Shown in pieces: positions 25,201 through 57,087 of a stretch of DNA of 64,000 nucleotides (position 1 is its first letter; each line of letters starts with the position of its first letter). The translations under genes and the position numbers were made by a program. Source of the DNA: Cymbomonas tetramitiformis. Lineage: Eukaryota; Chlorophyta; Pyramimonadophyceae; Pyramimonadales; Pyramimonadaceae. The notes under the pieces were generated by a model that saw nothing but the letters and a program-made list of their open reading frames with translations, was not told the DNA's origin and did no database searches. The stretch spans positions 1 through 64,000 of the forward strand of contig LGRX02029303.1 of the NCBI GenBank assembly GCA_001247695.2, given 5' to 3'.

Positions 25201-28200
25201 CTCCAGGGAGTAAACAAAACATTGTGCAGCAATGAATGGATGGACGTATATGTCATCATACCAAGAGTGTGAAGCGCACTAGAGACCATACAGTGCTTCT
25301 TGCAATACCGCCGGTGTGCAGCCCAACGTCCGTAAATCCGCCAAGAGGAGCCGACTTTGTGGCTGGAGCGTCGCCTGCTACTGCGTTGCGGGCATCTCGC
25401 ACGAGAGCGAGTATGAACGACGGCGTCTTCTGGTGGCCTTGCTTGTTGTTGGCTGCACTCCGCTTTCCGCCGGTCACATGCTGCTGGGCTTGACATTTCT
25501 GGAACTCGACTGCCTCCAGACAGCCAGGAAATTCGTCAGCCGGCACCGATCCAGCATAAACGACACTGTGGCCGTTACACTTTGCCACGTGTTGCGCGCT
25601 GCCACTATCTCCCCTGATCACCGATGTGCCGCCCATTCAATCCGACAACACAGCAGTGCGTAGTTTCTTACGCACGAGCATGCACACACACCACACAGTT
25701 ATGTTGCTCCGCTGCACACACTGCCTTACTTTACGAGCTCATTGCTTTGAAACGCTTGTTGCTGTCTTGAAATCCGCCCACCACTTCTAGTAAAAGCAGA
25801 TTATCACCGAAACTGTATATTGACGTGATTGTTTGAATTGTTTACGATATCAGAACTGTATGCATAGTAACAAACCTATATGCGATCTCATTTTGATAAC
25901 AACCGTTCCTTGAGCTCGACCCCCCTCCCCTCATATAGATGTAAATACAAATATGTGTGTGTGTACTCTCTGCCACACCAGGTAACGGATCATAGTATGT
26001 AAAACAGAGGCGCTTACTCAAACAGTAGGCCCCAGAAAACATCTGGACGGCATCAATCACTGCAAAGGGAAAGAACTATATATACCGACACGGTGCAGGA
26101 TAGATTATGTCCCCAAAATTCTCTATGCAAGTGAACAACGAAATGTTCACACCTCGCACCTTGAACTACACTTGTTAAATTCGAAGTAGTCAACACTCCA
26201 ACGTTAATCAATCAAATATTAACACACACACACACACACGTGTGTGTGACTGTGTGTGTGTGTGTGTGTGTGTGACAGAGAGTACACACACATATATATA
26301 TGCGGGACACTCTCTGACTCTACATTAGGTTGAATTTTATGTGTTTTTCCCCCTCGCAGTCGTTGCTACCGTCCTAAAATTTCCCAGGGCACTTTTTAAG
26401 TTGGTGCCCCTACCTGTTTTGCGTGTTGTGTGATCCCGTGCACGGTACGACAGGGAGAATACACATACGTGTATATACCTATATATCTTATGCTACATGC
26501 ACAACAGTGTGCACACGCTGTTGCAGTGAACGGCATGTCAGCCGATCATATCCAGTAGCACAAGCGCATGTTGCACTGTAAAATATAGCATACAATGTCT
26601 CCGTCAACATTCAAACCCACTATCACATTACTGCACACCACTCATTGATCGGTAGCGATTGCGTGTTATTGCCAGCGAGTAAGACTGCCATGTGGGATAC
26701 ACTTATCAGATGTAACAAGAAAACACCTACGCCGCTATGCATATACCCGCCTTCGAGCTCAGACCATCCACACCTGTGTATCGTGAAGGTCCACCCATCC
26801 AGGCATATCACGTACATATGTACATTATCAGCATAGTGACACCCCACATGGCCACACACTGCAAAGATAGAGCAGCCGTAGTCTGGAAACCATGTGATGG
26901 TATGCCTGCGCTTCCCGGCGATGATGTCCACAGCTCCCAGGAGACGTCGAACATCCGCATCCGTCCAGCCGAGAAGACTAGTTTGCTGCGCGTGCATAAA
27001 ATACACTTGATACTTCAATTGCTTCAACAACTAGCACGGTGCATGTGATCATGACTGATGCACACCATAAGCGCACCTACGTTCTCCGATTATATTCGTG
27101 CCTTTCAAACATTCACAACGAATCTGCGACAATAAGATACAATCTTCTATGCTGCGTAGCTTATTCAGCAGACATTGCATACATCCTCCATATCAGAGTT
27201 GCGCAGGATTGGTACGATTAACAGGGGCACTTCTTTTTCCTCAGTGCAAATCTGACTCATTTCAGGAACATTAGGGAATTTTCTTGATTGCGGAGGAAAT
27301 GTGACATGTTCCCGGAACAGGTAAACTAGTACCTTTCCCAGGAACATTACCTTTCCCAGGAACATTACTTTTCCCCGGAACATTACTTTTCCCAGGAACA
27401 TTACTTTCCCCAGAACCTTACTTTTCCCAGGAACATTACATTTCCCCGGAACATTACTTTTCCCAGGAATATCACTTTCCCCAGGAACATTACTTGTTCC
27501 CGCAACAAAACACCGCCAATTTGTTCCTGGAACAAGCAGTAACTTGGGCCAAAAAGGCGTTGGTTTTTTTTTCCGGGAACAAGTCAATTTTGCTCCGGAA
27601 GAACATGTAGCACACCCACTTACGCAGTATGTTTCAATATACCATATAGACCATATATGGAATATATATAGACTATATGAATACATACACACACGCACAC
27701 ATACACACCGGTGCATGATTTTCCCCAACTTTTCTACGACATATAATAAGCTTGCCTTGACACAGGTGCCGGCGACTATATATGGGACATTCTTCGTTTT
27801 TGTATTAGGTGTAGCGGATCTAGCAAGTCGAAAGCCCGCCTGCTGACTTCATCACAGAGGTGTTTGCGATATTTAGAATGGGGTGGAATGGGCTCGTGAT
27901 TGCCCGCATGTGCCGTATACACATAAATATACAACGAAGTGAAACAGCATCGACATGAAGCAACATCGTCTACTTGTTATTCCCATTATTCTCATTCAGT
28001 ATAGCACATGGATGCGCAGTGCATCTGCAACCTCCAAGCAATTGCATGTATCAGATTGTAGTACGCCAGAGTGTAATTTAATGTATCAGATGCAATGAAA
28101 AACGAATCGACCGACATGTATGCTATGATACCTGTCACATACAACTCTTATACAATTACGAGATACCTACATGGTTGGGTGTGTGTGAATGTGCGCGTGC

Positions 28201-39319: not shown

Positions 39320-39690
39320 CTTACAGTTCACACGCGCCTCACTGGGACATATTAGGTAGGCCGTCGCACAAAGCACGATCCTAAGAATAGTGTTCCGGAG
39401 CAACATGGAAGTTATTCCTGCAAAGTCGAGTGAAGGCATCTATGGCTTTGAATCTCAACTCTGGCCATCGGCGGTCAGCTCGTCCAACAGCGGTCAGAAA
39501 CTATGAATCGTCTGGCACGATATCCTAATTTAAATATGTCGGCAAATACATCTACCGTAGACTCGAATGCGTGTCACTGTAGAGCATTCCTAAAACGGGT
39601 TGGAGATTGTTGGTTTCTGCCTTGTTTGGATTTTGCAAACCCTATCAGGACCCTACGCCTAGTAGAGCTATGTGTCATACAATGGGTACT
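39320..39690. other. 5' side of the oxygenase gene; no separate gene seen
   Basis: Short open frames only. If the promoter is here I could not recognise its elements. Confidence 0.35.
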
Positions 39691-39865
39691 GTCATGTCAT
39701 GTCATGTCATGTCATGTCATGTCATGTCATGTCATGTCATGTCATGTCATGTCATGTCATGTCATGTCATGTCATGTCATGTCATGTCATATCATATCAT
39801 GTCATGTCATGTCATATCATATCATGTCATGTCATGTCATGTCATGGCATGGCATGTCATGGCAT
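39691..39865. repeat. (GTCAT)n pentanucleotide microsatellite
   Basis: About 35 units of GTCAT run with a few ATCAT and GGCAT variants toward the right end. It is followed by a duplicated TTTGATCCAAATT motif (39888-39911). Confidence 0.95.
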
Positions 39866-39911
39866 GCCATGTCATCCATTTGATCCAAATTGGATCCATT
39901 TGATCCAAATT

Positions 39912-42475: not shown

Positions 42476-42899
42476 TGTGCTAGGAGGACAAGCGCAACAG
42501 ATATAGCAAGCACAGAAAATAAGATAAGCAAAAATAGCTAAGTATAAAATACAGTGGAGTACTTAGTACGGAGTACAGTACTCAGATGACAGATGATGAC
42601 ATATGACAGTCCGAATTACTATAGTAATAGTAGTAGTCGGTGCTCCGGATGGAGCTCCGATAAAGCATATGCTAGAGAGCTTTCGGGCTGAATTCCGAAC
42701 AGACAGTGTTTCCGAGTGGTAAAAAGTATATAGCCGACTGTGCTTGCATATATTGCATAACTTGTTTCCAGTGATTGCCTGGTGTATTAGAAGTAATTTA
42801 GACAGTATCGATTGCATACCTGTTCTAGTGTCTTGCCTTGTTAGGGCTGAGTAATTATAGAGTAGCGAATAGAATAAGTTGAGAGTGTAGACTCCCACA
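42476..42899 (+). repeat. 5' LTR (424 bp)
   Basis: It starts TGTGCTAGGAGG and ends ACTCCCACA, with TG...CA ends. A TATAAAATA box at 42544 and CGATAAAGC at 42657 are candidate promoter and polyadenylation signals. Confidence 0.95.
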
Positions 42900-42903
42900 A
42901 AAT

Positions 42904-42921
42904 GGTACCCAGTTCGCTGGT
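42904..42921 (+). promoter_or_regulatory. Probable tRNA primer-binding site
   Basis: TGGTACCCAGTTCGCTGG lies four bases after the 5' LTR. It starts with TGG, complementary to a tRNA CCA end. The priming tRNA species was not identified. Confidence 0.6.
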
Positions 42922-43180
42922 GCCTGCGGATGCGCTTCCCTCTTGCGTTGTAATTCTGATGTTTTTCCGTTTGATCTTCCTTGTTTGATCGTCGCCCTTG
43001 TCTTGATCTTGCGTTGCGCTTTCCTTTTGGTTGCTTGCGTCTGGAATTGTCGGGCTGCTGGGTGGATGGGATTGCGTGTGGGCTTTCAGGTGCGCTCCGC
43101 ACTTTTGTGTCCTTCTTGAGCGGTGATTTCGCGTCGCGCCAGGTGCGATTGTGCGTGATTGCCTTGCTTGGTTAGCTAGG

Positions 43181-43524
43181 TGCATAAGGAGTGTCAGCCA
43201 CAGTGCGACTCCTCACAGCAGCCGGTGATTTTTGAAACCACTCCAGTTTGCGGACGATTGCACGCCTCTGCGGCGGAAGCGCTGGCCAATTTTTCTAAAA
43301 TTGGTTGGTATATCGTTTGCTTTTTGGAGATTGTTCGGATTTCACCCCCTAGTTGCATAAGGAGTGTCAGCCGCAGTGCGACTCCTCACAGCGCAGCCGG
43401 TGATTTTTGAAACAGCTCCGGTTTGCGGACGATTGCACGCCTCTGCGGCGGAAGCGCTGGCCAATTTTTCTACAATTGGTTGGTATATCGTTTGCTTTTT
43501 GGAGGTTGTTCGAATTTCACTCCC
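43181..43524 (+). repeat. 173-bp direct duplication in the gypsy leader
   Basis: TGCATAAGGAGTGTCAGCC begins copies at 43181 and 43354, and the two are over 90 percent alike by eye. It lies in the untranslated leader before gag. A role in packaging or translation is possible but untested. Confidence 0.9.
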
Positions 43525-43706
43525 TTGTGGCTTGGGCTTGCGAGCGGATTAGTCTTGCGTGCCTTGCGGGAATTGCTGAGCCTGTTGGGCCGGTTTTGGT
43601 GCGAATTCGTTGCGTTTTTCGCTTCAAATTTGTTCCGAATTCCTGTGGTGCGGCTGCTTCTCCTGCCTAGATTGCACGAAGCATACTCGTAACGCATAAT
43701 CTAGAA

Positions 43707-46700
43707 ATGCTATATTCAGATGATGAGATTTTCGGCGGTCGGCCGGGATGCGCGCCTGCGGCGGCGGGATCTCGGTTGGCCGGCGGGAATTTCGGGCTGG
43801 GCGCGTCCTCACGGGCGCGTTCGGGGGGCCGGTCGTTCCGGGGCCCGGGCTCTGTGGAGTTCTGGGGTGCTGTGGGGCGGTCGGAGGGTCGGGATTGGCG
43901 TCCCGGCCAGGGGGGGGGAGGTGTGCGGCGCTCTCTGGAGAGCCAGTACAAGACCCCCGAGCCTCTGACACCTCCTCCGGGGCTGTCAGAGGTGCCTCCT
44001 GAAGACCAACGGTCCGCAGTGCCTGCACAAGGAGCGAGCCGTAAGTACTCCGCGGGCCGGGGGCGCTTGCCAGCAGTACCTGCACCCCTTAGAGGCCGGA
44101 CAGCCGCAGGGGGTACGCAAGGGGTACGCCGCGGGCACCCGGCGCGGGAGGATCGCGAGCGAGCCGGTTCGAACCGGGCGCTCAGAGGTCCGGCAGGAGC
44201 CCCGGAGCTGGAGATAGGAGTAGCTCCGTCAGCCTCCATGCTCGAGTCAGGGCCGGAGCCGACGCGCGTGGAGCGCCAGGAGCGCTTCTCAGGGGCCCAC
44301 TTGGCTACGGTGCGCGCGCGGGAGTCCGACCACCGGTCCCTGATCGGTTTGGAGTCCAGCGACTCCGGGTCGGAAGAGGAGCGCGTGCGTCGGGCCCTCG
44401 CGTCCGAACCAAGGATACCAGCCACGCGGCTCGAGTGGGTAGAGGCGCCACCGGGCTTTGAGTGTCCCTCAAATGGCGCGCTGGTTGTCTACGGAATCGA
44501 GCAGCAGACTTCCTCATCGGTTGAGGGGAGTAAGCTGTCGGTCCAGGCCTTGGCATGGCACCCGAAGGTGCAGAGTGCACCCCCAGCAGGCTCAGAGACC
44601 GCTAAGCCTGACCTTGAGAGGCGGGTGAAAGCGTTCCTGGGTAGGCAGCGGCAGTCCCAGCTGGCAACAATCCTCGGCGAATGGAACGCCGCAGTTGTAC
44701 TGGCGGCGCAACGCCGGGAGCGTGGCACTCTCGCAGCCAGCCGGAGGGAAGCTCTGTTGCTGACCCATGCATGGAGTGACTGGGCTGAGAACGCGAAGCA
44801 ATTCGTGCGGCTGAAGCACTTTCACGCCGGGGTGCGTCAGCGTCAAGTCCGCGCGTTCTTCTCGGCCTGGCAGCGGCATCGAGAGTCGGTCCAAGGGAAG
44901 AAGGTTCGATGGGGGGAAGTTCAGGGGGTCCTGGACCATCGGAAGGAGCGTCTGATGCGAAGCAGTTGGAGCACTTGGCAGAGCCACCTAAAGGCGTCCA
45001 AGTGCGACAAAGCTAAGCCTCGGGCGAGTCCTGAAGAGGCGAGCCGGTGGCTAGACGTCCGCCGAGGACTGCGCTACCTGGGTCGGGACCAGGAAGTGAC
45101 TGGTATCGTGTGGTTTCAGCACGACGACCACGGTCTGAGTGCTTCGGGCTCCTACCAGCTGGAGTTGTACCAGCAGCCCTTGGCGGAGACCAAAAAGGTG
45201 TTACAACAAAAGAGAACTGATCCTTTCAACTCGTTGGAAAGGACCAGTTTCAGAGCTTTTGTTGTGAACATCAACCGTCCAGGTCAGCTGGTAGGACGCG
45301 GCGTGAGCCTTCGGGACGTTAGGAACGCTGTTCGGGTCGCCGTCCAGAGCTCGCGCCGTCGGCCCCCGAAGGACCCTCCCACTCCTCCCACGGACAAGCG
45401 CTGGGCTAACCGGTTCGCGTTGTTGTCGTCATCTGACGAGGAACCGGTAGAACTCAACGTGGGGCCTCGGGAGGTTCCGAGGATGGCGCGGGTCGCCACG
45501 CGCCGGAAACCGACCAGGTCGCGCCGTAAGTCCTCGGAGGACCCGTTGTCATCGGAGAGCACTCCCCCGACAACGGATCGAGACTCCCGCATGGAGGTGC
45601 CCACAGAAGCACTCCTCCGGGCTACTACCGCAAGGAAGAAGGGAAAGAGGGTTCCGAGAAAGCCCTCCTCGAGCCCAGACGCCTCCTCCTCCTCAAGCGA
45701 GAACTCTGCTCGTACGAGCGAGTCCTCGCTTGTCTCATCTCTCAGCAGCAGTGACCGTAAGGAGCTGCAAGACTTGAGGGAGGAGCTGCGCAAGGAGTCT
45801 CAGGGGCGCGCAGCGGCGGCTGAATCTCTGGCCGAGAGAATGGCTGAGCAGCTCCGGGAGAGTCAGCGGGTTTCCGACGAGCGTCGGGCTGCAGAACAGG
45901 CAGCGGCAGAGGAGCGCCAAGCTCAGCTGACCCGACAGCTGCAGGAGAGCCAAAAGTTGGCCGAGGAGCGCCAAACCCAGCTGAGCCTTCAGATGCGTGA
46001 GAGCCAGAGAGTCCTCGAGGAGAGACTTGCGTCGGAGGCGCTTGCTGTAGAGGAGAGCCGCGTAGCTATCCAGCGGGCTGCTGATGAGCGTATCGCTCAC
46101 GAGCTAGCCGCGCAGGAGCAACGAGCTCTTGACCAGCAAGCCGCCGAAGCACGCAAGCAGGCCGAATCCGATCAGCTTGAGGAGAGGTTGCAGGCTGCGG
46201 TGGCCGCCCAGATTCAGAAGCTGGTGTTAGCCCAATCTTCTCCTTCAGGGCCGGTCGAGTCAGGTGTGTCGATTCCGAGTCCGGAAGCAGAGACGCCGTC
46301 ATCCGGGACGCACCGTGGCTTGGTCGAGACGGCTTCGGCCACCACCTGTGACGTCAGGGGGCTGTCGGCGCCCACTCCCGTGAAGGTGCAGCAACCGCAC
46401 GCCTGGGACATGGTCTCTCTCCCGGTGCGAGTCTGCCAAGCCATCCGGGAGAGGGTGGTGGAGCACGGTAGCGGGGGTGTGGACGCCCAGTTCCTGTTCT
46501 ATAAGGTAGCTCGCGAATACCGCGAGGCGGGTCAGGCGGACGAGCACGGGCCTGCGGCTTGCCGCATCCGTAATGTTGCACGGGCGACGGTCAGGACTGG
46601 CGAGCGAGTCCTCACCTCTCAGGTGGTCATGGGCTTCAGTGAGTCGTGGAGCTCTGACATCCCGGGAGGGGAGTGCTCCCGGTGCGGGTGCAGTAGCACG

Positions 46701-48200
46701 GAGAGCAGTGTCAGGTTTTGGGCCTGTCAGGTGACCCATAAGGTCAGTCCGATACCCTTCCCCAAGCCCCAGTACTTGCCGTTGTGCGGGTTCTGTACGG
46801 CGGATGTGTGGCCCCACGCGCTCGACAACTTCCCGGTGGTGTCACCTCCTCCTCAAGGGGGGGGGGTGGTCATAGCCTCGTCGGAAGTTGGCATCCCCGA
46901 AGGCTCCGGAGGGTCCGGCAGCCCTAGCGACCCTAGCGGTCCAAGGGGACCTGGAGGATCCGGCGGAGGACCCAGCGGTCCAAGCGACCCTGACGGTCCC
47001 AGGGGGTCTGGCGGCGGGTCCAGTGGAGGGCCCGGTGGACCCGGAGAACCCGGCGGGCCCAGCGACCCGGGTGATCTCGGGGGCCAAGGGGACGACGCGG
47101 ACGAGAGTGGTAGCTATTGGAGCGCCGCGAGTTCGGCTCGGTCTCGTGGTGGGTCCTCACACCGCAGAACGGAACAGGACGCCCTCAAGTGGGCCCTCAA
47201 GATGATAAGCGAGACGGTGGACCGGTATGATACCGCCGTGGAGGGGTCCGGCCACGCGTTCGGACCGCTCATCCGGTTCGTGCGTCAAGTTAGGGAGCTG
47301 CTGGATTTAGAGCCGGTGCGCTACGCCATGATGATGACGCGCCTTGGGCCGTCGGCGAGTGGAGAGAGCGGCCAGCCGGTGCTGACGACCCACAGCTTGA
47401 TGTCGGAGGTAGCTAGGCATTGTTTCTCGGCAATGGGCTCGGAGCGCCGGGAGCTCCAATCCATACTGGCAGCATCTCGGGAGAGAAGGGACCTCACTCT
47501 GGACGTGATGGTAGCCCCGTTGGCACGGTTGGTGGTACCTGACCGAGCTGAGATGGCTGCTCTGGGACCGTTCTTGCGCCGAGTGCGGCAGAGTCAGGAT
47601 CGTCATTCCCGTACGGTCCGGGAGTTCTGGGACGGGGTGCATCTCGCGCATGACATAGTGAGCATGTTAGCTAGCCACGGTCTCACCACTTCTATACCGG
47701 AGGAAGAGATTTTGGATATCTTCCTCACAGGGCTGACGCCGGATTTGAGAAATAGAGTATCTCTCATCGCCGAAAGGCAAAGCTCCTCGGTTCTGTCATT
47801 GGACAGAAAGAACCGCCAGGACCGGGATCGGCTGCTCGCTTGGGCGATAGAGGCCGAACGGGAGCTGCGTCAGAGTTCGGAGAGACGGTCGTCCCTGCAG
47901 CTGCTGGCTCATGTGGAGGTGACGGAGGAAGTGATGGCCCTAGCAGCGTCGGCTAACACTCCAACACCTACAGGACAGCGCCTCGGGTCTCCGGAGTACG
48001 AGGGGTGTCGTCTGTGCAAAAGCCTGGAACACTACGCCCGTGATTGCCCGCAGCGGGCAGAAAGACCCAAGGAGTGGGCTAAGTGTATCATGGAAGAGGC
48101 GATCGCGATGATAGGGGACCCGGAGGAAGCTCTCGCGGCCATAGGGATGGATTTTGTCCCGGAGGACGTCTCCCAGCCCGAGGCGTCCTCCACGCAGTAA
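43707..48200 (+). CDS. Giant gypsy Gag (about 1,497 residues)
   Basis: The ATG at 43707 opens a frame to TAA 48198-48200. The N-terminal third is Arg/Gly/Pro-rich. Tryptophan-spaced helical repeats follow at about 44640-44990 (LLLTHAWSDWAENAKQF, RAFFSAWQRHRESV, RSSWSTWQSHLKASK), resembling Sfi1-type repeats. Then comes a long Glu/Gln/Arg coiled coil at about 45770-46210, a collagen-like Gly/Pro/Ser tract at about 46900-47090, and a capsid-like helical domain at about 47170-47890. A single CCHC zinc knuckle, CRLCKSLEHYARDC (C-x2-C-x4-H-x4-C), lies at about 48008. Only the last two parts are usual for gypsy Gag; the protein is three to four times the usual size. Confidence 0.85.
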   Translation: MLYSDDEIFGGRPGCAPAAAGSRLAGGNFGLGASSRARSGGRSFRGPGSVEFWGAVGRSEGRDWRPGQGGGGVRRSLESQYKTPEPLTPPPGLSEVPPEDQRSAVPAQGASRKYSAGRGRLPAVPAPLRGRTAAGGTQGVRRGHPAREDRERAGSNRALRGPAGAPELEIGVAPSASMLESGPEPTRVERQERFSGAHLATVRARESDHRSLIGLESSDSGSEEERVRRALASEPRIPATRLEWVEAPPGFECPSNGALVVYGIEQQTSSSVEGSKLSVQALAWHPKVQSAPPAGSETAKPDLERRVKAFLGRQRQSQLATILGEWNAAVVLAAQRRERGTLAASRREALLLTHAWSDWAENAKQFVRLKHFHAGVRQRQVRAFFSAWQRHRESVQGKKVRWGEVQGVLDHRKERLMRSSWSTWQSHLKASKCDKAKPRASPEEASRWLDVRRGLRYLGRDQEVTGIVWFQHDDHGLSASGSYQLELYQQPLAETKKVLQQKRTDPFNSLERTSFRAFVVNINRPGQLVGRGVSLRDVRNAVRVAVQSSRRRPPKDPPTPPTDKRWANRFALLSSSDEEPVELNVGPREVPRMARVATRRKPTRSRRKSSEDPLSSESTPPTTDRDSRMEVPTEALLRATTARKKGKRVPRKPSSSPDASSSSSENSARTSESSLVSSLSSSDRKELQDLREELRKESQGRAAAAESLAERMAEQLRESQRVSDERRAAEQAAAEERQAQLTRQLQESQKLAEERQTQLSLQMRESQRVLEERLASEALAVEESRVAIQRAADERIAHELAAQEQRALDQQAAEARKQAESDQLEERLQAAVAAQIQKLVLAQSSPSGPVESGVSIPSPEAETPSSGTHRGLVETASATTCDVRGLSAPTPVKVQQPHAWDMVSLPVRVCQAIRERVVEHGSGGVDAQFLFYKVAREYREAGQADEHGPAACRIRNVARATVRTGERVLTSQVVMGFSESWSSDIPGGECSRCGCSSTESSVRFWACQVTHKVSPIPFPKPQYLPLCGFCTADVWPHALDNFPVVSPPPQGGGVVIASSEVGIPEGSGGSGSPSDPSGPRGPGGSGGGPSGPSDPDGPRGSGGGSSGGPGGPGEPGGPSDPGDLGGQGDDADESGSYWSAASSARSRGGSSHRRTEQDALKWALKMISETVDRYDTAVEGSGHAFGPLIRFVRQVRELLDLEPVRYAMMMTRLGPSASGESGQPVLTTHSLMSEVARHCFSAMGSERRELQSILAASRERRDLTLDVMVAPLARLVVPDRAEMAALGPFLRRVRQSQDRHSRTVREFWDGVHLAHDIVSMLASHGLTTSIPEEEILDIFLTGLTPDLRNRVSLIAERQSSSVLSLDRKNRQDRDRLLAWAIEAERELRQSSERRSSLQLLAHVEVTEEVMALAASANTPTPTGQRLGSPEYEGCRLCKSLEHYARDCPQRAERPKEWAKCIMEEAIAMIGDPEEALAAIGMDFVPEDVSQPEASSTQ

Positions 48201-51200
48201 GGGGCGTGAGCCCCGAAGCAGCGGGGCAACAGGGGCACGGAAGCCCCGGACCTGTGCCTTGCAAGGTGCAGGAGTTGCGCGATAGGTGGAGGAGGTGTCG
48301 AAAGCACCTCAGTGGCAGTGCTAGGAACCACCTGCGGGAAAGAACTCGAGCGGGGAAGCCAGAAGGCGACCTCGAGGATTTGTGCATGATGGCGGCCACC
48401 CGTACGGAGCTCTCTCAAGAACTTCCGGAAAGGAGGTGCGTTGAAGAACGCGTCAAGCTGGAGCAGGCTGCCTACCGAAAGGCGGCCAACGCGCCTGTTT
48501 GTACTACGGCGCAGCGCTTAGAGGCGGGAGTGGCCGTTAGACTTAAGCCACACGCCTCTGGAGTAGTTGTCAGGCTCCAGCCAGCCACTGGCAGCACGGT
48601 TGAGACATGTGCTGCTTACCGTCAGCATCTGGAGAACCAAGGGACGGACGTTGCCAGTGTCCGGAGGCATTGGAAGTACCGGAAGCAGCGCGAGCCCCAA
48701 CGTCAAGTCAGACAGCTGCTGAGGGTGCAGCGAGCAGACGGACGCTTGCGTCCGACCATCCGAGCGCTGGAGCGACACGTGGCGGAGGGGGCCAACTTGG
48801 CAACCGGCTCGCGTAAGTTGGAACTTTGGAGAGCAGGACGTAGGAGGCGTTCCCGACAGAACTCCCTGGTGTCTAAGGCTCTGGAGGAGAGCGCAACCCG
48901 GAGTGGCCTGGAGGAGTGCAGGAAGTGTCTGGAGCGTCTGAAGCGAGTCCGGGAATACAACCGACGACGCCGTGAGGTCTTGGACCGGGAGGCGGGTCGG
49001 CCTGTTCAAGTAGCGCGAACTCGGAACGAGAAACCGAAGTCGGAAAAGGTCCCAGGCCCCAGTCGACCTTGGTTGACTAGGGGCAAGGCCCGCTTGGCGT
49101 CGGGACGCAGCCGGAGAGCCTGGCTCTCGGGGGAAGGCAAATTGCGCCGTACTACCGACTTGGAGGCTCAATATAAGCGAGAAGACAGGCCAGTCCCGCT
49201 CACCGAGATCGAGCGCCGGGCGGACTTCCATGCCTTTGTGCAGGAGAGCAGAAGTCAGGAGCAGCGTGAGTTCCTCGAAAAATGCGAGTTTTCCCATCGG
49301 GACGAGCAAGTTAGGGGGCGCATCGCTGCCAAGCGTGCGGCGGCGACTATACAAGTAGCTGTGTATCCGCCGGACTACCAGGATCCGGGAGTGGTCCGAC
49401 AGGCGGTTTTTACCGGCCTCTTGGCTGATGCGTGTACGTGGCCTCTGCCGGATTCAGACTCGGACTCGGAAACTCCGATTGCAGATCTGGGTTGTATTAT
49501 GCAGAATGGCGACGTGAGTCCGGGTTGGTGTGAGTCTTTGGCGGCAATGTCTTCGCTGAGAAACGCCCCTAGAGGGTTTAGCAGACACAGTAAGAAGCCG
49601 ACGTTGTTGTTGTTTTGGGCGTGGATCGGGGGCGTTCGGGTCAAGGTGTTGGTGGACTCAGGGGCGTCCACCAATATCATCGCCGCGGACACCGTTCGTC
49701 GCCTCAAGGGATTGCAGCCGGTGCGCCACGAGCAGGCGATGCGAGTCAGAGTTGCTGACGGCCGGACTTATGACGCTAATTCGTGCGTACGGCCCCGCCT
49801 TCAGGCGGAGACGTCGAAGGGGACGTACGGCCAGCAGGTCGAGCTCCGAGTAATGCCCATAGACTTAAAGGTGGACGTTATTTTGGGTGGGCCATGGCTG
49901 GCGGACCTCTCCCCAGTCACCTTGGACTATAAGAACTGGGGGTCGGTTCGCTTTAGCAAGGGCAAGGAGGAGGTTGTCATCACCGGTTGTTCGCCCGGGT
50001 CTCCGGAGCCGAACCGAGCTAAGGACTCGGCCATGGCCCTGGTGCAGGGAGTGATTCTGAGTCAGCGTCGTGCCCGGCGGGACCTACGGGCCCTTCGTGC
50101 AAAGGAGGAGTGTGCGTTTGTCGTCTACCTAGCTCCGGACGGGTCGTTTGGGGCGACAGCGTTCGACAGTGGGGGGAGAGATTCGGGCGAGGACTCGCCA
50201 AACGACGTCGTAGCGGGTCTCGCCTCGGAACCTTCTTCCGACGGCGAAACGGTCTCGGACGACCCGAACGGTGCCCTGGCAGAATCCCCCTCGGAGTCTA
50301 CCTCCGCGCCGGAGCCGTCCTTGCATCCGTTGGCTTCGGACACTGGCTCGGATAGCGACGGGTTCTGGGCGGAGTACCCAAGGGACAACAACGGGTCCGG
50401 AGCAGGGTCTTCGGGGACCGAAGGTAGCCAGCACTTAGAGCGGGTAGCAGCGCTGGCTGCGGATGTCCGTCCGGCGGGGTTCGTGGGTGCTGTCGAGGAG
50501 GACAGTTCGACCGACCCCCTAAGCTTCTTTGCCAGCAAGCGGGAAGCGAACGGGGCGTTTGCGCTGTTGCCGGCGGCCGTGCGTAGACAGGCCATAGAGG
50601 ATCATGCCGCGGGCAAGCCAGCTACGTGGCACGCTCAGGCGGCTGCTGCGCTGCGGCAGGGGCGACAGTTGGTGGCAGAGGGACGCCCGCGGGTGAAACG
50701 GAGGCAAGTGCGCTGGAGCGACCAAGTGGCCGCAGTTGCACCCCCAGTGGAGAGGGAGCCTACTAAGGCTCAGGCGGCAGATGCCGCACCAGCCGTACCC
50801 TCGGTACCGGTCCTAGAGCCACGAGAGGATGAGATAGACGAGTCAGTGTCGCCAGAAATGTGGCAACAGCTTAGGGATTTGGAAAAGGAGTTTGAGGATG
50901 TGATTTGCACAGAGTTGCCGGAATCGGTCCAGGCCAGGGAGTACAAGGCTAGTGTCCGTCTGAGACCGGACTGGCAAGGGAACCCGCTGTATCGCAAGGG
51001 GTATAAGTTGTCCCAGGAAGGGTTGCGCCAGTTGCGTCTGCAACTAGACGAGCTCCTAGCCAAAGGGTACATGCGACCCTCAGCTTCCCCTTGGGGGTGC
51101 CCGGTGTTGATGGTGCCTAAGCCTAGTAACCCTAAAGAGCTGCGTCTGGTCATTGATTATAGGCAGATCAACGAGATCACAGTCAAGGACAAGTATCCTT

Positions 51201-52927
51201 TGCCCGACGTCCAGAGTCTGCTAGACGACCTCCAGGGAGCAACGGTCTTCTCCACGATGGACGCGCTATGGGGATTCTGGCAGATACCCATGAGTGCGGA
51301 TGACGTGGAGAAGACAGCCATGACCACTCACTTCGGAGCGTATGAGTGGTTAGTCATGCCCATGGGATTGTCTAATTCCCCGAGCACGTGGCAAAGGATG
51401 ATGACCCAGTACCTGGGGCACCTCCCCTTCTGTAGGGTCTTCGTCGACGATATCATGATCTTCAGCGCGGACGATCCCGGAGAAGGGGGTGCCCCTGGCA
51501 GAAATGCCCATCAGGTACACTTGGATCACCTGCGTCAAGTGCTGGAGGCGTGTCGGAAAAACTCGGTCTATCTCAAGAAGTCCAAGGTGAAGTTGTGTAA
51601 GCGAGCAGTCCGTTTCTTAGGGCATGTAGTGGATCGGGATGGATGCCGTCCTCAACAGGATAAGGTAGCGTCGGTGCGCGATTGGCCGGATCTAGAAACG
51701 GTCACCCATGTACGGCAGTTCTTGGGTATGTGCGGGTTTTACCGGCGATACATCCAGAACTTTGCCGACCTGGCGTACCCGCTGACCCGACTCACCAAAT
51801 CCGGTGTGGAGTGGGCGTGGGGGAAGGAAGAAAAAGCAGCATTCAACCGTTTGAAAGCAGCTCTGATCTCTTCCCCAACTCTAGCACTCCCTGACCAAAG
51901 GGGAGCCGCGGACGGATCTAGGCCTTTTTGTGTGCAGACAGATGCCAGCGGAGTCGCCCTAGGAGGAGTACTCATGCAGGATTTTGGGCAGGGCTTGCAG
52001 CCGATAGCCTTCGAGAGTCGGCAGTTTTCGAGTGCAGAGCAGAACTATCACGCAGGAGAGCGGGAGTTGTGTGCGATACACCATTGCACCGCAATCACCT
52101 GGAGGCACTATTTGATCTTCACATCCTTTAAGCTTATTGGAGATCACAAACCCCTGCAGTGGCTATTCGCTCCGGCACGCGAACTCAGCCGACGGCAAGC
52201 CCGCTGGTACGAGGACTTAGTAGAGGTAGGCGTGCATCAGATGGAACACGTCCCAGGGTGGTGTCTGGTGGTACCGGATGCCCAGTCCCGACGGCCCGAC
52301 TATAAGGAGTTGTCGGCTAGGGAAGGGTTGAAGGAGAAGGGTATCGTCGACCGTTCTACGGACGGCCCTCGAGTCTCGAAGCGTACCGACGTCCCTAGTA
52401 AGGAGATCCCAGAGAAAGTCGACGAGGACGAAGACCCGGCTTCCGTCTTAGACGCCGTCTTTGAGTACAGTGACTCAGAAGACGAGTCAGTGCCACCCAC
52501 CAGTCCCCCAGTTGTGATCGGAGAACTTACCCACCTGAATGGGCTTACTTGGGTAGAAACCCCGGATCTCTGGTCAGACGCTGCAGATACATTGAGGGTA
52601 GGAGAGAAGGCTCTCGAGGACGCAGAGTCACTGGCTGCTGTCACTAGGTCCGCCCAAGTCAGGGAAAGAGAGTCGGCTACCCCGGTCGGCCATCACAGCA
52701 ATCAGGCAACCGGCTCCCACTACGATCGAGTGGTGGACCGGCAGGACTGGAGACTAATTAAGGAACGCTTCGATGAGATAGTTGCTCAGTACGGTCCGTT
52801 CGACGTTGACGCTTGGTGTGACTCCATGGGGGTTAACCGGCAAGTTGAACACTTTTGGACTGACTGCTTGAAGGAGCAGTGGCGCGGGAACCGGGAAGCA
52901 CGTGTGGTGCAATCCGCCGTACACTAA
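48083..52927 (+). CDS. Gypsy Pol, part 1: protease, RT, RNase H, start of Dam-like domain
   Basis: The frame overlaps gag by at least 118 nt in the -1 frame, so Pol is presumably made by frameshifting. A long basic linker precedes the aspartic protease (VKVLVDSGASTNIIA, DVILGGPWL; about 49640-49900). The RT is at about 50950-51640 with SASPWGCPVLMVPK, YPLPDVQSLLDDL, FSTMDALWGFWQIPM and FVDDIM. RNase H is at about 51930-52290 with FCVQTDASGVALGG and GDHKPLQWL. A further acidic linker leads to DRQDWRLIKERFDEIVAQYG followed by PFDVDAW (about 52740-52815), the N-terminal part of a phage-type Dam methyltransferase. The frame is lost near 52901 and the last 10 residues are not real. Confidence 0.9.
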   Translation: MYHGRGDRDDRGPGGSSRGHRDGFCPGGRLPARGVLHAVRGVSPEAAGQQGHGSPGPVPCKVQELRDRWRRCRKHLSGSARNHLRERTRAGKPEGDLEDLCMMAATRTELSQELPERRCVEERVKLEQAAYRKAANAPVCTTAQRLEAGVAVRLKPHASGVVVRLQPATGSTVETCAAYRQHLENQGTDVASVRRHWKYRKQREPQRQVRQLLRVQRADGRLRPTIRALERHVAEGANLATGSRKLELWRAGRRRRSRQNSLVSKALEESATRSGLEECRKCLERLKRVREYNRRRREVLDREAGRPVQVARTRNEKPKSEKVPGPSRPWLTRGKARLASGRSRRAWLSGEGKLRRTTDLEAQYKREDRPVPLTEIERRADFHAFVQESRSQEQREFLEKCEFSHRDEQVRGRIAAKRAAATIQVAVYPPDYQDPGVVRQAVFTGLLADACTWPLPDSDSDSETPIADLGCIMQNGDVSPGWCESLAAMSSLRNAPRGFSRHSKKPTLLLFWAWIGGVRVKVLVDSGASTNIIAADTVRRLKGLQPVRHEQAMRVRVADGRTYDANSCVRPRLQAETSKGTYGQQVELRVMPIDLKVDVILGGPWLADLSPVTLDYKNWGSVRFSKGKEEVVITGCSPGSPEPNRAKDSAMALVQGVILSQRRARRDLRALRAKEECAFVVYLAPDGSFGATAFDSGGRDSGEDSPNDVVAGLASEPSSDGETVSDDPNGALAESPSESTSAPEPSLHPLASDTGSDSDGFWAEYPRDNNGSGAGSSGTEGSQHLERVAALAADVRPAGFVGAVEEDSSTDPLSFFASKREANGAFALLPAAVRRQAIEDHAAGKPATWHAQAAAALRQGRQLVAEGRPRVKRRQVRWSDQVAAVAPPVEREPTKAQAADAAPAVPSVPVLEPREDEIDESVSPEMWQQLRDLEKEFEDVICTELPESVQAREYKASVRLRPDWQGNPLYRKGYKLSQEGLRQLRLQLDELLAKGYMRPSASPWGCPVLMVPKPSNPKELRLVIDYRQINEITVKDKYPLPDVQSLLDDLQGATVFSTMDALWGFWQIPMSADDVEKTAMTTHFGAYEWLVMPMGLSNSPSTWQRMMTQYLGHLPFCRVFVDDIMIFSADDPGEGGAPGRNAHQVHLDHLRQVLEACRKNSVYLKKSKVKLCKRAVRFLGHVVDRDGCRPQQDKVASVRDWPDLETVTHVRQFLGMCGFYRRYIQNFADLAYPLTRLTKSGVEWAWGKEEKAAFNRLKAALISSPTLALPDQRGAADGSRPFCVQTDASGVALGGVLMQDFGQGLQPIAFESRQFSSAEQNYHAGERELCAIHHCTAITWRHYLIFTSFKLIGDHKPLQWLFAPARELSRRQARWYEDLVEVGVHQMEHVPGWCLVVPDAQSRRPDYKELSAREGLKEKGIVDRSTDGPRVSKRTDVPSKEIPEKVDEDEDPASVLDAVFEYSDSEDESVPPTSPPVVIGELTHLNGLTWVETPDLWSDAADTLRVGEKALEDAESLAAVTRSAQVRERESATPVGHHSNQATGSHYDRVVDRQDWRLIKERFDEIVAQYGPFDVDAWCDSMGVNRQVEHFWTDCLKEQWRGNREARVVQSAVH

Positions 52928-54950
52928 GGATTCGGACTTGATAGAAAGAATCCTGAGACACTTCCTTGCCGAATGGCGAGCCGACCCAGAGAACACCTCT
53001 GCTATGTTCCTCCTGCCGGACTATGACGCCCCCTGGAGGCGTTTAATCCACCCCAAGTACGGTCTCCACCCAGTTAGAGTCTTCGACGCTAGGGATGAGA
53101 AAGGACGTCCTAACCACTTGTTCGAGTCACCCGATGGAGGTCGACCGCCCTTGCGATGGCCGGTTATCTTGGTCTGGGCCCCAGCCGCTAGTCGGTCCAG
53201 GCCGCGTGCTCCGCCAGTACGCAAGTCCGCCAAAGATGGTCAGGACACCGAGGAACCGCTTGTCACCTCAGGTGTTGCAGCTAAGGCCAGGTCAGCTTTA
53301 GGGCCCCTCAAGGCAGACCAGTTTGTGCGAGCCTTACAGGCGGAGTATGACAGAAGTCCGTACCTCAGCTCGCTGAGAGAGGAATTGGCAGCAGCACCCC
53401 ATCAACGGACAGACACCTTTCGTATGGTAGATAACATGATCTGGAGGGTGGCAGAGGGTAGATATCAGCTGGTGTTGTCTCAGGACTCGCCCCTCAGGGA
53501 GCTAGTGATGCGCGAGGCCCACGAGTCACCGGCAGCAGGACACACCGGGAGGGACAAGACGTTAGACAGGGTTAACCGCCGGTTTTGGTGGCCGCGTATG
53601 AGTAGGGACGTCACTGAGTGGTGCAAGTCGTGTCCCGTGTGTCAGCAGACCCGGCCCCGCAACGGCTATCCCGACGGCCAGTTGAACCCGCTGCAAGTGC
53701 CAGTCCGGTTATGGCAAGTGGTGAGTATTGACTTTGTCACCGGCCTTCCGCGTACAGAAAGAGGCTACGACGCCTTTGCCACATTTACGGATAAGTTGTC
53801 CAAAATGGTGCACGTCGTCCCTATGTTGTACGCGGATAGTTCGGCGGCCCAAGTCGCGCGCATGTATTTCGATCAGATATGGCGCCTCCATGGGGCCCCT
53901 ATGAAGATCGTGTGTGACCGGGACTCCCGGTTCCGGGATGAGATGCATCTGGAGTTGCACCGGTTGATGGGGGTCCAAGTGGCCTCCACCACTCCTTATC
54001 ACCCCCAAGGGGACGGACAGGCGGAGCACACTAATCACACGGTCGAACGGATGCTGCGCGCCTATGTCGACGCGAACCAGCAGGATTGGGATCTGTGGTG
54101 CACCCCGGTTGAGTTTGCCATTAATGACTCTCGGTCTGCGGTCACGGGCTTTACCCCGTTTGAGCTGATGTATGGCCACGCTCCGGCCTCCCAGCTGGAC
54201 TTCTTCGTAGAAGCAGCATTGGCGTCCCGCGGAGGCCGCGCTAAGGGGGGGAGGGGTGTAGCAGTCAAAAAGGGTACAGCCCACGAGACGGCTCGCCAGT
54301 TTGTGCGCCAATTACAGTTGGCCAGGGAGAAGTTGTTACTGGCCCAGCAACAGCAAATAGCACAGTATGACGCGCGTCACCGAGCTAGGAGCTACGCTAT
54401 AGGCGACGAGGTCTGGGTCGACGCAACGCACCTCACTCAGCCAGGGGACCGGGGCCTACACAAGAAGTTGCTCAAAAAGCGCTTAGGGCCCCTCAGGGTG
54501 TTAGAAGCGTTCCACAGCGACCGGCAGATGGCCCTCCCACCTAGTGAACGCGGAGCGCCGTCCGCCTACCGACTGCAAACACCAAAGCAGTGGAAGGTGC
54601 ACGATGTCTTCACAGTGGACCGGCTTTCCCCAGTGGAGTCCAGTAGCCGTTTTGTGGAAAGGGCAAAGGAAATCCCTCCCCCTCCGGTGCACGTCAGCGG
54701 TCGCAAGGAGACCCACGTGGAGTGTATTGAGAGGTCACGCACCCGACAGCACAAGGGTAGAAGGTGGACAGAGTACCTAGTTAAGTGGACGGGTATGCCT
54801 CGTAGCGAGAACGAATGGAAGACGAGGGAAGATCTCGAGTGGGATGGTGCGGGCAGGCCAGGGGTGCCCAATAGAGCGTTAGTGGAATTCGAAAAAGTGG
54901 AGGCAAAGAGAGTGCAGCGAGAGAAGTTACGCGTCCAACAGCAACAGTAG
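52902..54950 (+). CDS. Gypsy Pol, part 2: Dam-like catalytic motif, integrase, chromodomain-like segment
   Basis: It reads on from part 1 after a frame break. VWCNPPYTKD (about 52902-52931) is the NPPY catalytic motif of N6-adenine methyltransferases, followed by FLLPDYDAPWRRL and LRWPVILVWAP, as in phage Dam proteins. The integrase starts with an HHCC finger (REAHESPAAGHTGRDK...CKSCPVC; about 53510-53645). Its catalytic D, D and E lie in VVSIDFVTGLP (about 53730), IVCDRDSRF (about 53915) and GDGQAEHTNHTVERM (about 54030). HVECIERSRT...YLVKWTGMPRSENEW (about 54712-54830) is a chromodomain-like tail that may guide integration to chromatin. The frame ends in QQQQ and TAG at 54948-54950. Confidence 0.9.
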   Translation: MWCNPPYTKDSDLIERILRHFLAEWRADPENTSAMFLLPDYDAPWRRLIHPKYGLHPVRVFDARDEKGRPNHLFESPDGGRPPLRWPVILVWAPAASRSRPRAPPVRKSAKDGQDTEEPLVTSGVAAKARSALGPLKADQFVRALQAEYDRSPYLSSLREELAAAPHQRTDTFRMVDNMIWRVAEGRYQLVLSQDSPLRELVMREAHESPAAGHTGRDKTLDRVNRRFWWPRMSRDVTEWCKSCPVCQQTRPRNGYPDGQLNPLQVPVRLWQVVSIDFVTGLPRTERGYDAFATFTDKLSKMVHVVPMLYADSSAAQVARMYFDQIWRLHGAPMKIVCDRDSRFRDEMHLELHRLMGVQVASTTPYHPQGDGQAEHTNHTVERMLRAYVDANQQDWDLWCTPVEFAINDSRSAVTGFTPFELMYGHAPASQLDFFVEAALASRGGRAKGGRGVAVKKGTAHETARQFVRQLQLAREKLLLAQQQQIAQYDARHRARSYAIGDEVWVDATHLTQPGDRGLHKKLLKKRLGPLRVLEAFHSDRQMALPPSERGAPSAYRLQTPKQWKVHDVFTVDRLSPVESSSRFVERAKEIPPPPVHVSGRKETHVECIERSRTRQHKGRRWTEYLVKWTGMPRSENEWKTREDLEWDGAGRPGVPNRALVEFEKVEAKRVQREKLRVQQQQ

Positions 54951-55991
54951 ACGGCAGTAGGAGCCGCAATTCGGACTACTTTGTCAGAAGAACTGTCGGT
55001 AGATGGCTCCTTGCCGTGGGTGCCGGAGGAGCGGTTTGACGAGGAAGTAGGTACTGGTACCTTCGCGCGAGTGTCTACCACCTACACCGGACCCGGGAGT
55101 AGCACGGCAAAACTAGAAGTGGAACCAACAGACCGGCTCAAGATACTCGTGTTGTTTAGCGGAACGGGATCTGTCGAAAGGCAATTCACCAAGCAATTTC
55201 CGGGTAGCGAAGTGGTTGCTGTAGACATTCAGCCCAGATGGAATCCTACTCATTGTGAGGATATCATGCGATGGGATTACAGACAGTTCAGACCCGGCCA
55301 CTTTGATGTGATTTGGGCCAGTCCACCGTGCACTGAGTACAGTCAGGCAAAGACAGTAGGGGTCCGGGACCTGAGCGTTGCTGATCGTCGAGTCCGTAGG
55401 ACACTAGCCATTATCCAGTATTTGGGACCCCATGCGTACTTCATTGAGAACCCGCAGGGGAGGGCGCCGTACGGACTGCACTCGCGCCGATGCATGAGGA
55501 ATCTTCCACCTCCTCACCTCGCCACGTACTGTAGGTACGGTGCGCCGTTTAGGAAACCGACGCATATCTGGACCAACATGCAGTTGCGTTCGCCCCTCCT
55601 AGTGTGCGATACGACGACTCCCTGCGAGTTCTTCCGCCAGCACGGAAAGCATGAGAAGGTTGCGCAAGGAGGGACAGCCTTGAGAGTCGGAGGAGAGTCT
55701 GTGAAAGGGATGGGCGCGAGAGAAAACCTGTACAGCATCCCAGCGCGCCTGCTTCGACAACTGTTTCAAGACTTGCCCGTGACTGCAGAGGTGTGTCATT
55801 ATATGTCTATGTTGTTGGATAGGGAAGGTTCGGATGAGAGTGACGAGCCCCCTGAAGAGAAGAGTGACCTTGACGAACGCGAATGCGCCCTCGAATTAGA
55901 CGAACCGATAGCACTCGCCGGAGCACGATGCGATGCGCCAACGGCCCAGGAAGGGGGTTGGGAATCCGATGCGAGTGGGGTCAGTGACTGA
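54951..55991 (+). CDS. C5 cytosine DNA methyltransferase encoded by the gypsy element
   Basis: This is open in the same frame as Pol, immediately after a single TAG, to TGA 55989-55991. Motif I LVLFSGTGSVERQF is at about 55147. The catalytic motif IV ASPPCTEYSQAK, with the nucleophilic Cys, is at about 55318. Motif VI YFIENPQGRAPYG is at about 55440, then CRYGAPFRKPTHIWTN. An acidic C-terminal tail (SDESDEPPEEKSDLDE) follows. It would methylate cytosine at carbon 5. There is no ATG before motif I (the first in-frame ATG is at about 55266), so it is probably made as a Pol extension by stop readthrough, or by non-AUG or spliced initiation. Retrotransposon-encoded C5 methyltransferases are known from a few algae and dinoflagellates. 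Confidence 0.88.
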   Translation, partial: TAVGAAIRTTLSEELSVDGSLPWVPEERFDEEVGTGTFARVSTTYTGPGSSTAKLEVEPTDRLKILVLFSGTGSVERQFTKQFPGSEVVAVDIQPRWNPTHCEDIMRWDYRQFRPGHFDVIWASPPCTEYSQAKTVGVRDLSVADRRVRRTLAIIQYLGPHAYFIENPQGRAPYGLHSRRCMRNLPPPHLATYCRYGAPFRKPTHIWTNMQLRSPLLVCDTTTPCEFFRQHGKHEKVAQGGTALRVGGESVKGMGARENLYSIPARLLRQLFQDLPVTAEVCHYMSMLLDREGSDESDEPPEEKSDLDERECALELDEPIALAGARCDAPTAQEGGWESDASGVSD

Positions 55992-56036
55992 CGGTGCAGG
56001 ACAGGTTGAGCCATGCCTCCGATGCTTGTTTAAGGG

Positions 56037-56350
56037 AGCATTGGCTCCAGCCTCGGTACGACCAGGCGGCAGGTTGAAACCTGGGTAATCCATTCATGAG
56101 AGCATTGGCTCTAGTTCGGCGGTGCCGGGCAGCAGGTGGAAACCTGGGTAATCCATTCAGGGGAGCATTGGCTCTAGTTCGGCAGTGCCGGGCGGCAGGT
56201 TGAAACCTGGGTAAACTATTTCACGAAAGCATTGGCTCCGGCCTCGGTGCAGCCAGGCAACAGGTGGAAACCTGTATAATCCATTCAGCAAGAGCAGTGG
56301 CTCTAGCCTCGGCGTGACCGGGCGGCAGTTGGAGCACTGGGTAAAAGCTC
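56037..56350 (+). repeat. Five tandem copies of a 64-bp unit in the gypsy 3' non-coding region
   Basis: AGCATTGGCTC(C/T)AG recurs at 56037, 56101, 56164, 56228 and 56293 (AGCAGTGG in the last). Each is followed by GGCGGCAGGTTGAAACCTGG-like sequence, which contains the inverted pair AGGTT/AACCT. A second small repeat, GGGCAGGCGTCCCAAGAACC, occurs twice at 56352-56397, with a variant at 56527. Confidence 0.9.
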
Positions 56351-56651
56351 TGGGCAGGCGTCCCAAGAACCGCTGGGCAGGCGTCCCAAGAACCGCCAGG
56401 TAATTGGCAAACCTATTGTCATCCCTGTACTGTGCGTGTATGCTATACTTTGAGGTTTCGATACCTTGTGTGTCTGGAAGTGTACATGTGAATCCAGGCA
56501 CCAGGAGCAGGGTCCTGGGAATCCCCGGGCAGGCGCCCCGAGAACCGCCGGGTTTGACAGGCCTAAAAACTGTCAGGATGAGCCATTTATGGTCATCGGG
56601 ACCGCCGTAGGTTCCAGGCGGCCCATGTGGTCAGCGAGGACGTGACCTTCC

Positions 56652-56663
56652 CTAAGGGGGAGT
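56652..56663 (+). promoter_or_regulatory. Polypurine tract
   Basis: AAGGGGGAGT sits directly before the 3' LTR start (TGTGATAGG). It is the expected plus-strand primer site. Confidence 0.8.
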
Positions 56664-57087
56664 TGTGATAGGAGGACAAGCGCAACAGATATAGCAAGCA
56701 CAGAAAATAAGATAAGCAAAAATAGCTAAGTATAAAATACAGTGGAGTACTTAGTACGGAGTACAGTACTCAGATGACAGATGATGACATATGACAGTCC
56801 GAATTACTATAGTAATAGTAGTAGTCGGTGCTCCGGATGGAGCTCCGATAAAGCATATGCTAGAGAGCTTTCGGGCTGAATTCCGAACAGACAGTGTTTC
56901 CGAGTGGTAAAAAGTATATAGCCGACTGTGCTTGCATATATTGCATAACTTGTTTCCAGTGATCGCCTGGTGTATTAGAAGTAATTTAGACAGTATCGAT
57001 TGCATACCTGTTCTAGTGTCTTGCCTTGTTAGGGCTGAGTAATTATAGAGTAGCGAATAGAATAAGTTGAGAGTGTAGACTCCCACA
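56664..57087 (+). repeat. 3' LTR (424 bp)
   Basis: Same length as the 5' LTR, with two visible substitutions. Followed by the TSD TTTAA. Confidence 0.95.

Follow-up and report, generated by a model that had tools for sequence, protein, structure and literature searches.

The first 64,000 nucleotides of contig LGRX02029303.1 of the green alga Cymbomonas tetramitiformis, from an assembly of 852 Mb in 25,745 contigs, make up the stretch analysed here (the window), and they contain a long terminal repeat (LTR) retrotransposon whose pol region includes two different methyltransferase modules, one of the adenine (Dam) type and one of the cytosine (C5) type. This Ty3/gypsy chromovirus copy occupies positions 42476-57087 (14,612 bp), has TG and CA ends and is flanked on both sides by the same target duplication (Table 1). 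Its Pfam domains, taken from the open reading frames (ORFs) of the window, follow the order protease, reverse transcriptase (RT), RNase H, Dam, DDE integrase, chromodomain and C5, with SH3_Tf2-1 listed between the rve integrase and the chromodomain. The two LTRs differ by 2 mismatches (99.5% identity), the gag-type and pol frames overlap by 118 nt in different frames, and directly 3' of the 5' LTR both the window and a sister copy read TGGTA after AAA, a candidate primer-binding site. No tyrosine recombinase was found among the Pfam matches of the element, integrase H2C2 and rve being present instead, and its repeats are two ordinary direct LTRs rather than a DIRS-like arrangement. On its sequence features, the element is a young Ty3/gypsy chromovirus with two LTRs and a chromodomain C-terminal to the integrase. 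The original prediction had recognized one gypsy element in which a Dam segment separates RNase H from integrase and a C5 segment comes after the integrase; the LTRs, the target duplication and the chromodomain emerged only in the present analysis.

The adenine module is recognized through its relatives. In the window its first half alone matches Pfam Dam at E 0.095, below the cut-off, and its second half alone gives no Pfam Dam match and a weak match to phrog_111 (3.6e-4), so that a Dam profile test restricted to the window would fail. That outcome is overturned by the in-frame relatives: the sister copy L007 matches Pfam Dam (PF05869) at 3.6e-9 with 36.9 bits against a cut-off of 28.1, and phrog_111, a DNA methyltransferase family, at 2.9e-12, while PF05869 is above its cut-off in all six related proteins. 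The closest phage matches of the module are annotated as DNA adenine methyltransferases, and NPP is invariant in the 12 rows of the Dam alignment, from which one protein reading SPPY (P0006) was left out. The suspected methyltransferase at 52.7-53.2 kb thus has profile matches in relatives, and both domains recur in other copies and families.

The cytosine module, in the ORF at 54951-55991, matches Pfam DNA_methylase (PF00145) at E 4e-4 with 20.3 bits, slightly short of the cut-off (22), and phrog_757 at 5.4e-17. Among relatives, which retain the segment, P0013 exceeds the PF00145 cut-off (25.1 bits), P0141 and P0142 fall below it (20.1 and 17.3 bits), and P0139 is not listed at E 0.01. PPC and ENP, which we take to be motifs IV and VI of C5 methyltransferases, are invariant in 36 of 36 alignment rows, the window included. 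Outside retroelements, the nearest sequences are short viral or phage-type proteins: a scan of viral contigs with the window C5 protein alone found nothing, and one with the C5 alignment gave at least 596 relatives among the 600 pattern matches listed. In the C5 tree, which was built without reference eukaryotic DNMTs and whose rows are labelled by upstream length (at least 90 aa before the domain) and not by retroelement domains, all 33 rows with such an upstream part and the 2 Cymbomonas rows lie inside one group of 67 (SH-like approximate likelihood ratio test, SH-aLRT, 96). A single capture of C5 was considered and is not shown by this tree, as 32 short rows share the same group. Many proteins from marine metagenomes, truncated upstream, also have C5 fused to a chromodomain or to SH3_Tf2-1 (P0039, P0043, P0059, P0123 and others), and a relative of C5 occurs in Prorocentrum minimum.

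Structure prediction assigns methyltransferase folds to both modules. The C5 model, with a mean predicted local distance difference test (pLDDT) score of 88.7, matches DNMT3B (6kdp, E 4.9e-10) and M.HaeIII (5.8e-8), and its top Foldseek rows are DNMT3 proteins, a likeness of fold only. The predicted Dam module matches CAPAM, Erm and Dam. A sequence search against solved structures returned nothing for C5 or for the alignment of Dam at E 0.1.

Table 1. Features of the chromovirus copy, in window coordinates
Feature	Position	Strand	Basis
5' target-site duplication TTTAA	42471..42475	.	flanks read directly
5' LTR, 424 nt, TG...CA	42476..42899	+	self-comparison
gag-type open frame, 1509 aa, CCHC zinc knuckle at end	43671..48200	+	zf-CCHC E 0.0045, 17.5 bits, under cut-off 20.8
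pol open frame: protease, RT, RNase H, Dam first half	48083..52927	+	ORF list, Pfam
Reverse transcriptase domain	51113..51628	+	Pfam RVT_1 8.8e-29
RNase H domain	51917..52222	+	Pfam RT_RNaseH 1.9e-28
Dam first half (FDVDA motif)	52730..52888	+	80% aa identity to in-frame sister copy, 51 codons
Dam second half (WCNPPY, FLLPDYDAPW), other frame	52896..53190	+	96% aa identity to sister, 92 codons
Integrase: H2C2 zinc-binding domain and rve core	53487..54005	+	Integrase_H2C2 5.6e-24; rve 9.9e-6, 26.2 bits, under cut-off 32.6
Chromodomain	54714..54839	+	Pfam Chromo 3.4e-7, 30.5 bits vs cut-off 25.1
In-frame TAG between chromodomain and C5, window copy	54948..54950	+	sister frame open at same place
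C5 cytosine-methyltransferase domain (FSGTGS, PPCTEYS, ENP)	55128..55799	+	profiles, alignment, fold model
Five tandem copies, 63-65 nt unit, between C5 frame and 3' LTR	56053..56353	+	
Purine run adjoining 3' LTR, likely polypurine tract	56654..56662	+	direct reading
3' LTR, 424 nt	56664..57087	+	self-comparison
3' target-site duplication TTTAA	57088..57092	.	flanks read directly

Although the original prediction stands in that both domains belong to one conserved gypsy element, it had not noticed that the window copy itself is broken. The two Dam halves lie in different frames, at the end of the ORF at 48083-52927 and the start of the ORF at 52872-54950, owing to a short frame-changing insertion relative to in-frame relatives. 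Because of this frame change and of the TAG before C5, an intact polyprotein cannot be made from the window copy as it reads, which is evidently a recent insertion that has been damaged. Contig C3947 carries the same insertion event (99.97% over 6002 aligned element columns; 98.9% over 4001 nt running into the flank) with the same split frames; it is therefore the other allele or a duplicate contig and not independent support for a working copy. In two copies with about 90% DNA identity to the window, C10850 and C15682, both Dam motifs lie in one frame; the Dam domain of C15682 breaks further on.

Uninterrupted frames are found in the sister family, at 80% DNA identity, in which all four copies examined, picked for their long listed frames, have a single frame of 2753, 2753, 2757 and 2753 aa. 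In one of them, L021, the motifs follow in one frame as FVDD (RT) at 1205, DVDACCDS at 1700, WCNPPY at 1732, PPCTEYS at 2534 and IENP at 2574. L021, L022 and L024 are only 6 to 13 substitutions apart in 8259 nt, all of them transitions, and the sister family has therefore spread recently. A sister copy on contig C3347 has 428-nt LTRs with 2 mismatches and GGAAA on both sides, as read from its flanks.

The two modules also occur together beyond these selected copies. A DNA search with the Dam region gave 1118 first-look candidates, of which the best 40 were scored, 36 of them at 80% identity to the window; C5 lies downstream of Dam at 30 of the 40. In 13 of these a listed C5 place stands on the same strand 1751-1767 nt downstream, as judged against 34 of the 117 C5 places listed among 8001 candidates of a search with a different query; open frames of at least 2750 aa are present at 11 of those 117. 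The remaining 27 Dam places comprise 17 with C5 and 10 without. Among the 10 misses, C10850 ends before a possible C5 and C5370 within its expected place, and integrase too is missing from the stretch in C21265, C4042 and C10850. At the 29 loci examined for frame, the best Dam and C5 matches share one stop-free frame in 9 (in 3 of which C5 itself is broken or partial), lie in different frames in 9 and in one frame with stops in 1, and 10 have no C5; most sampled copies are therefore damaged or carry assembly indels.

The double-methyltransferase gypsy family is abundant and present in high copy number in Cymbomonas. PF05869 gave 7257 first-look candidates in the genome, and all 150 that were scored exceed the cut-off; 14 of these best 150 have open frames of 2500 aa or more. 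Of 14 control genomes, E. coli alone has the domain. According to the available text of a 2015 paper (PMC5741210; the papers cited here were available in part), three of four scaffolds with more than 10,000x coverage, against a scaffold mode of 21x, show chromodomain, RNase H and cytosine methyltransferase homology, which suggests hundreds of copies, provided that these repeats belong with the window family. Chlamyvir-related chromovirus gypsy elements have also been described in this alga (PMC10675990), and both they and the high-coverage repeats are very likely the same as, or sisters of, the elements studied here. In what is available of these two papers no adenine methyltransferase is mentioned and the domains are not assigned to one element, and the main text of PMC10675990 contains no word beginning with 'methyl'.

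Three further lineages, whose Dam domains share 52-58% identity with that of the sister family, keep the same domain order. Eight proteins of the library (P0010, P0013, P0138, P0139, P0140, P0141 and P0142 at 52-58%, and P0004 at 85%) run from RNase H or Dam through integrase and tail to C5, the C5 of P0140 being a 55-aa piece; P0010 derives from a Joint Genome Institute (JGI) metagenome. A genome contig, C3710, with a listed open frame of 3110 aa, has the Dam and C5 motifs in one 1107-aa frame that is 97% identical to P0142. C5 is matched in 8 of the 16 Dam-bearing library proteins, P0140 among them. In five without it (P0008, P0009, P0011, P0012 and P0144) the post-integrase region is not matched at all, whereas in P0003, P0007 and P0143 that region is matched, yet without C5. 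P0143 and P0144 are the more distant (36-38% Dam identity), with Dam above the Pfam cut-off between RNase H and integrase; P0144 ends within the integrase. The integrase tree (11 rows), the Dam tree (11) and the C5 tree (8, P0140 omitted) recover the same groups with no supported conflict.

Both modules appear to be under purifying selection, Dam about as strongly as the integrase. Between the window and the sister, third codon positions account for 23 of 32 changes in the first half of Dam and 43 of 51 in the second, compared with 137 of 170 in the integrase, 208 of 265 in RT-RNase H and 102 of 159 in C5; for two linkers the counts are 60 of 102 and 29 of 53. Third positions thus predominate among the changes in both modules, above all in Dam. 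The ratios of nonsynonymous to synonymous divergence (dN/dS, NG86) are 0.058 and 0.009 for the Dam pieces, 0.030 for the Dam of C10850 against the sister, 0.014 for the integrase and 0.061 for C5, with dS undefined in three comparisons and near or beyond saturation in the others against the sister. GATC counts gave no signal.

From the fixed order, the presence in many copies and several lineages, the selection and the predicted folds, we infer, with somewhat less than even confidence, a chromovirus family whose pol regularly includes two phage-derived methyltransferase modules that act on the element's own nucleic acid. Both modules would be carried in the particle alongside RT and integrase and would reach the nucleus with the integrase complex. 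Their most likely targets would be newly made cDNA or a copy that has just integrated, along with the chromatin to which the chromodomain guides that copy, and the resulting marks would make new copies resemble host DNA or set the chromatin state at the insertion site. Action on cDNA has been proposed for retroelement methyltransferases (de Mendoza et al. 2018, PMC5890265).

Several observations weigh against this interpretation. The deepest ingroup split, with SH-aLRT values of 99 in the integrase tree and 100 in the C5 tree, has no support in the Dam tree (43). C5 is less strongly constrained than the integrase, although more strongly than the linkers, with third-position shares of 64%, 81% and 55-59%, respectively. 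CpG is not depleted (the observed/expected ratio is 0.91 for the element and 0.75-0.96 elsewhere in the window), and there is therefore no trace of long-lasting CpG methylation. In the distant Dam-bearing gypsy P0143, the C-terminal tail is without the catalytic PPC and ENP of C5; its residues from about 1735 to 1970 can be aligned in colinear order with the C5 profile, though the match is weak (probability 29%, pairwise E 5.8e-4). The tail may be a dead C5 domain, an assignment we did not adopt, given this weakness. Finally, the predicted structure of the adenine module is nearer to the RNA cap enzyme CAPAM/PCIF1 than to the DNA enzyme Dam of E. coli.

Since CAPAM/PCIF1 is the closest fold, an RNA substrate is a live rival to DNA for the adenine module. 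The module could methylate the element's transcript, perhaps at the cap-adjacent adenosine as CAPAM/PCIF1 does, and so stabilize it, favour its translation or hide it, with C5 acting on DNA. We consider this unlikely, though it is the strongest of the alternatives: likeness of fold does not establish what an enzyme acts on, the sequence profiles and closest phage matches name DNA adenine methyltransferases, and no profile relation was found between Dam and a PCIF1-like ORF elsewhere in the window (E 0.099, probability 0.6%). A combined version, rather improbable in our view, is dual modification from one polyprotein, in which a CAPAM-like module would mark RNA, for example beside the cap, C5 would mark the cDNA or new copy and the chromodomain would choose the site; if true, the element would disguise itself both epitranscriptomically and epigenetically by means of two captured phage-type enzymes.

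Alternatively, one or both modules might no longer be catalytic and might be retained to bind nucleic acid or for a structural role in the polyprotein. The P0143 tail, in the C5 position, fits this idea, which the invariance of PPC and ENP in the C5 rows and of NPP in the Dam rows nevertheless makes improbable. The modules might also shield the DNA of the element, or the host, from other DNA by self/non-self marking, for example in competition with the giant and Polinton-like viruses of this alga. Such a role has been proposed generally for retroelement methylases (PMC6338049), the alga contains many endogenous DNA viruses (PMC10675990), and relatives of each module occur among viral and phage records; we nonetheless give it a low probability, as no restriction-type partner is present among the Pfam domains of the element. 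Least probable by far is chance adjacency or an assembly artefact, with a phage, bacterial or other-element Dam or C5 gene beside an ordinary gypsy, which the split Dam and the C5 behind a stop in the window, and the indel errors possible in a hybrid nanopore and short-read assembly (PMC10675990), might recall, but which is refuted for the family by sister copies in which Dam, integrase and C5 are read in one uninterrupted frame, by the constant spacing of the modules in 13 places and by the same order in other lineages and the metagenome protein P0010.

How the proposed family, with its two methyltransferases acting on the element's own nucleic acid, compares with known elements can be seen from published cases. 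KnitGypsy-Dnmt3 of Klebsormidium nitens (de Mendoza et al. 2018, PMC5890265) joins a gypsy pol to a Dnmt3-clade C5 and has repeats arranged as in DIRS. Like the Cymbomonas element it has a Ty3/gypsy polyprotein with a C5 methyltransferase under purifying selection in a green-lineage alga; in contrast to it, the Cymbomonas element has ordinary LTRs, a chromodomain and Dam, no adenine module being mentioned in the available text on KnitGypsy-Dnmt3. Certain DIRS retrotransposons have a PF05869 Dam domain after RNase H (PMC3783388, PMC5890265) and thus share a pol with RT, RNase H and then the adenine-methyltransferase domain; however, DIRS elements use a tyrosine recombinase and are without protease and DDE integrase (PMC3783388), whereas the Cymbomonas element has protease, DDE integrase, chromodomain, LTRs and C5. 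SymbioDIRS-Dnmt3 and SymbioLINE-Dnmt of Symbiodinium also combine a retroelement with a cytosine methyltransferase in a marine alga, but they belong to other element classes and no adenine module is reported for them in the accessible part of PMC5890265. The available text of a paper on Entomophthora (PMC11105155) has nothing on Dam in Ty3. Our literature search, which covered sources other than subscription papers, preprints and Repbase reports, found no report of both methyltransferases in one element or of Dam in a gypsy pol, and is consistent with the earlier doubt that a precedent exists.

The window contains other features of interest. At 4494-9434 (+), an open frame of 1646 aa joins PCIF1_WW (4.1e-20) to RNase H (8e-17), which suggests a second retroelement type in the window with a domain of the adenine-methyltransferase type. 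PCIF1 represents the cap m6Am methyltransferase family; its motif is NPPF, and the ORF reads NPEY. A host-like gene fragment with DUF3638 and DUF3645 domains lies at 10897-13011 (-), a long run of TGTCA-type pentamers at 39690-39870, and short tandem arrays at 13759-14027 and 27312-27531.

Retroelements with a single methyltransferase are known, and why such enzymes are kept is an open question. With a high-copy family that has retained two chemically different methyltransferases across lineages sharing only 52-58% Dam identity, the question can be put to the test in a single culturable alga, for which nanopore reads already exist (PMC10675990). Such a family would also mean that phage-type enzymes have been recruited twice into one eukaryotic mobile element, with Dam residing in a gypsy pol rather than in DIRS.

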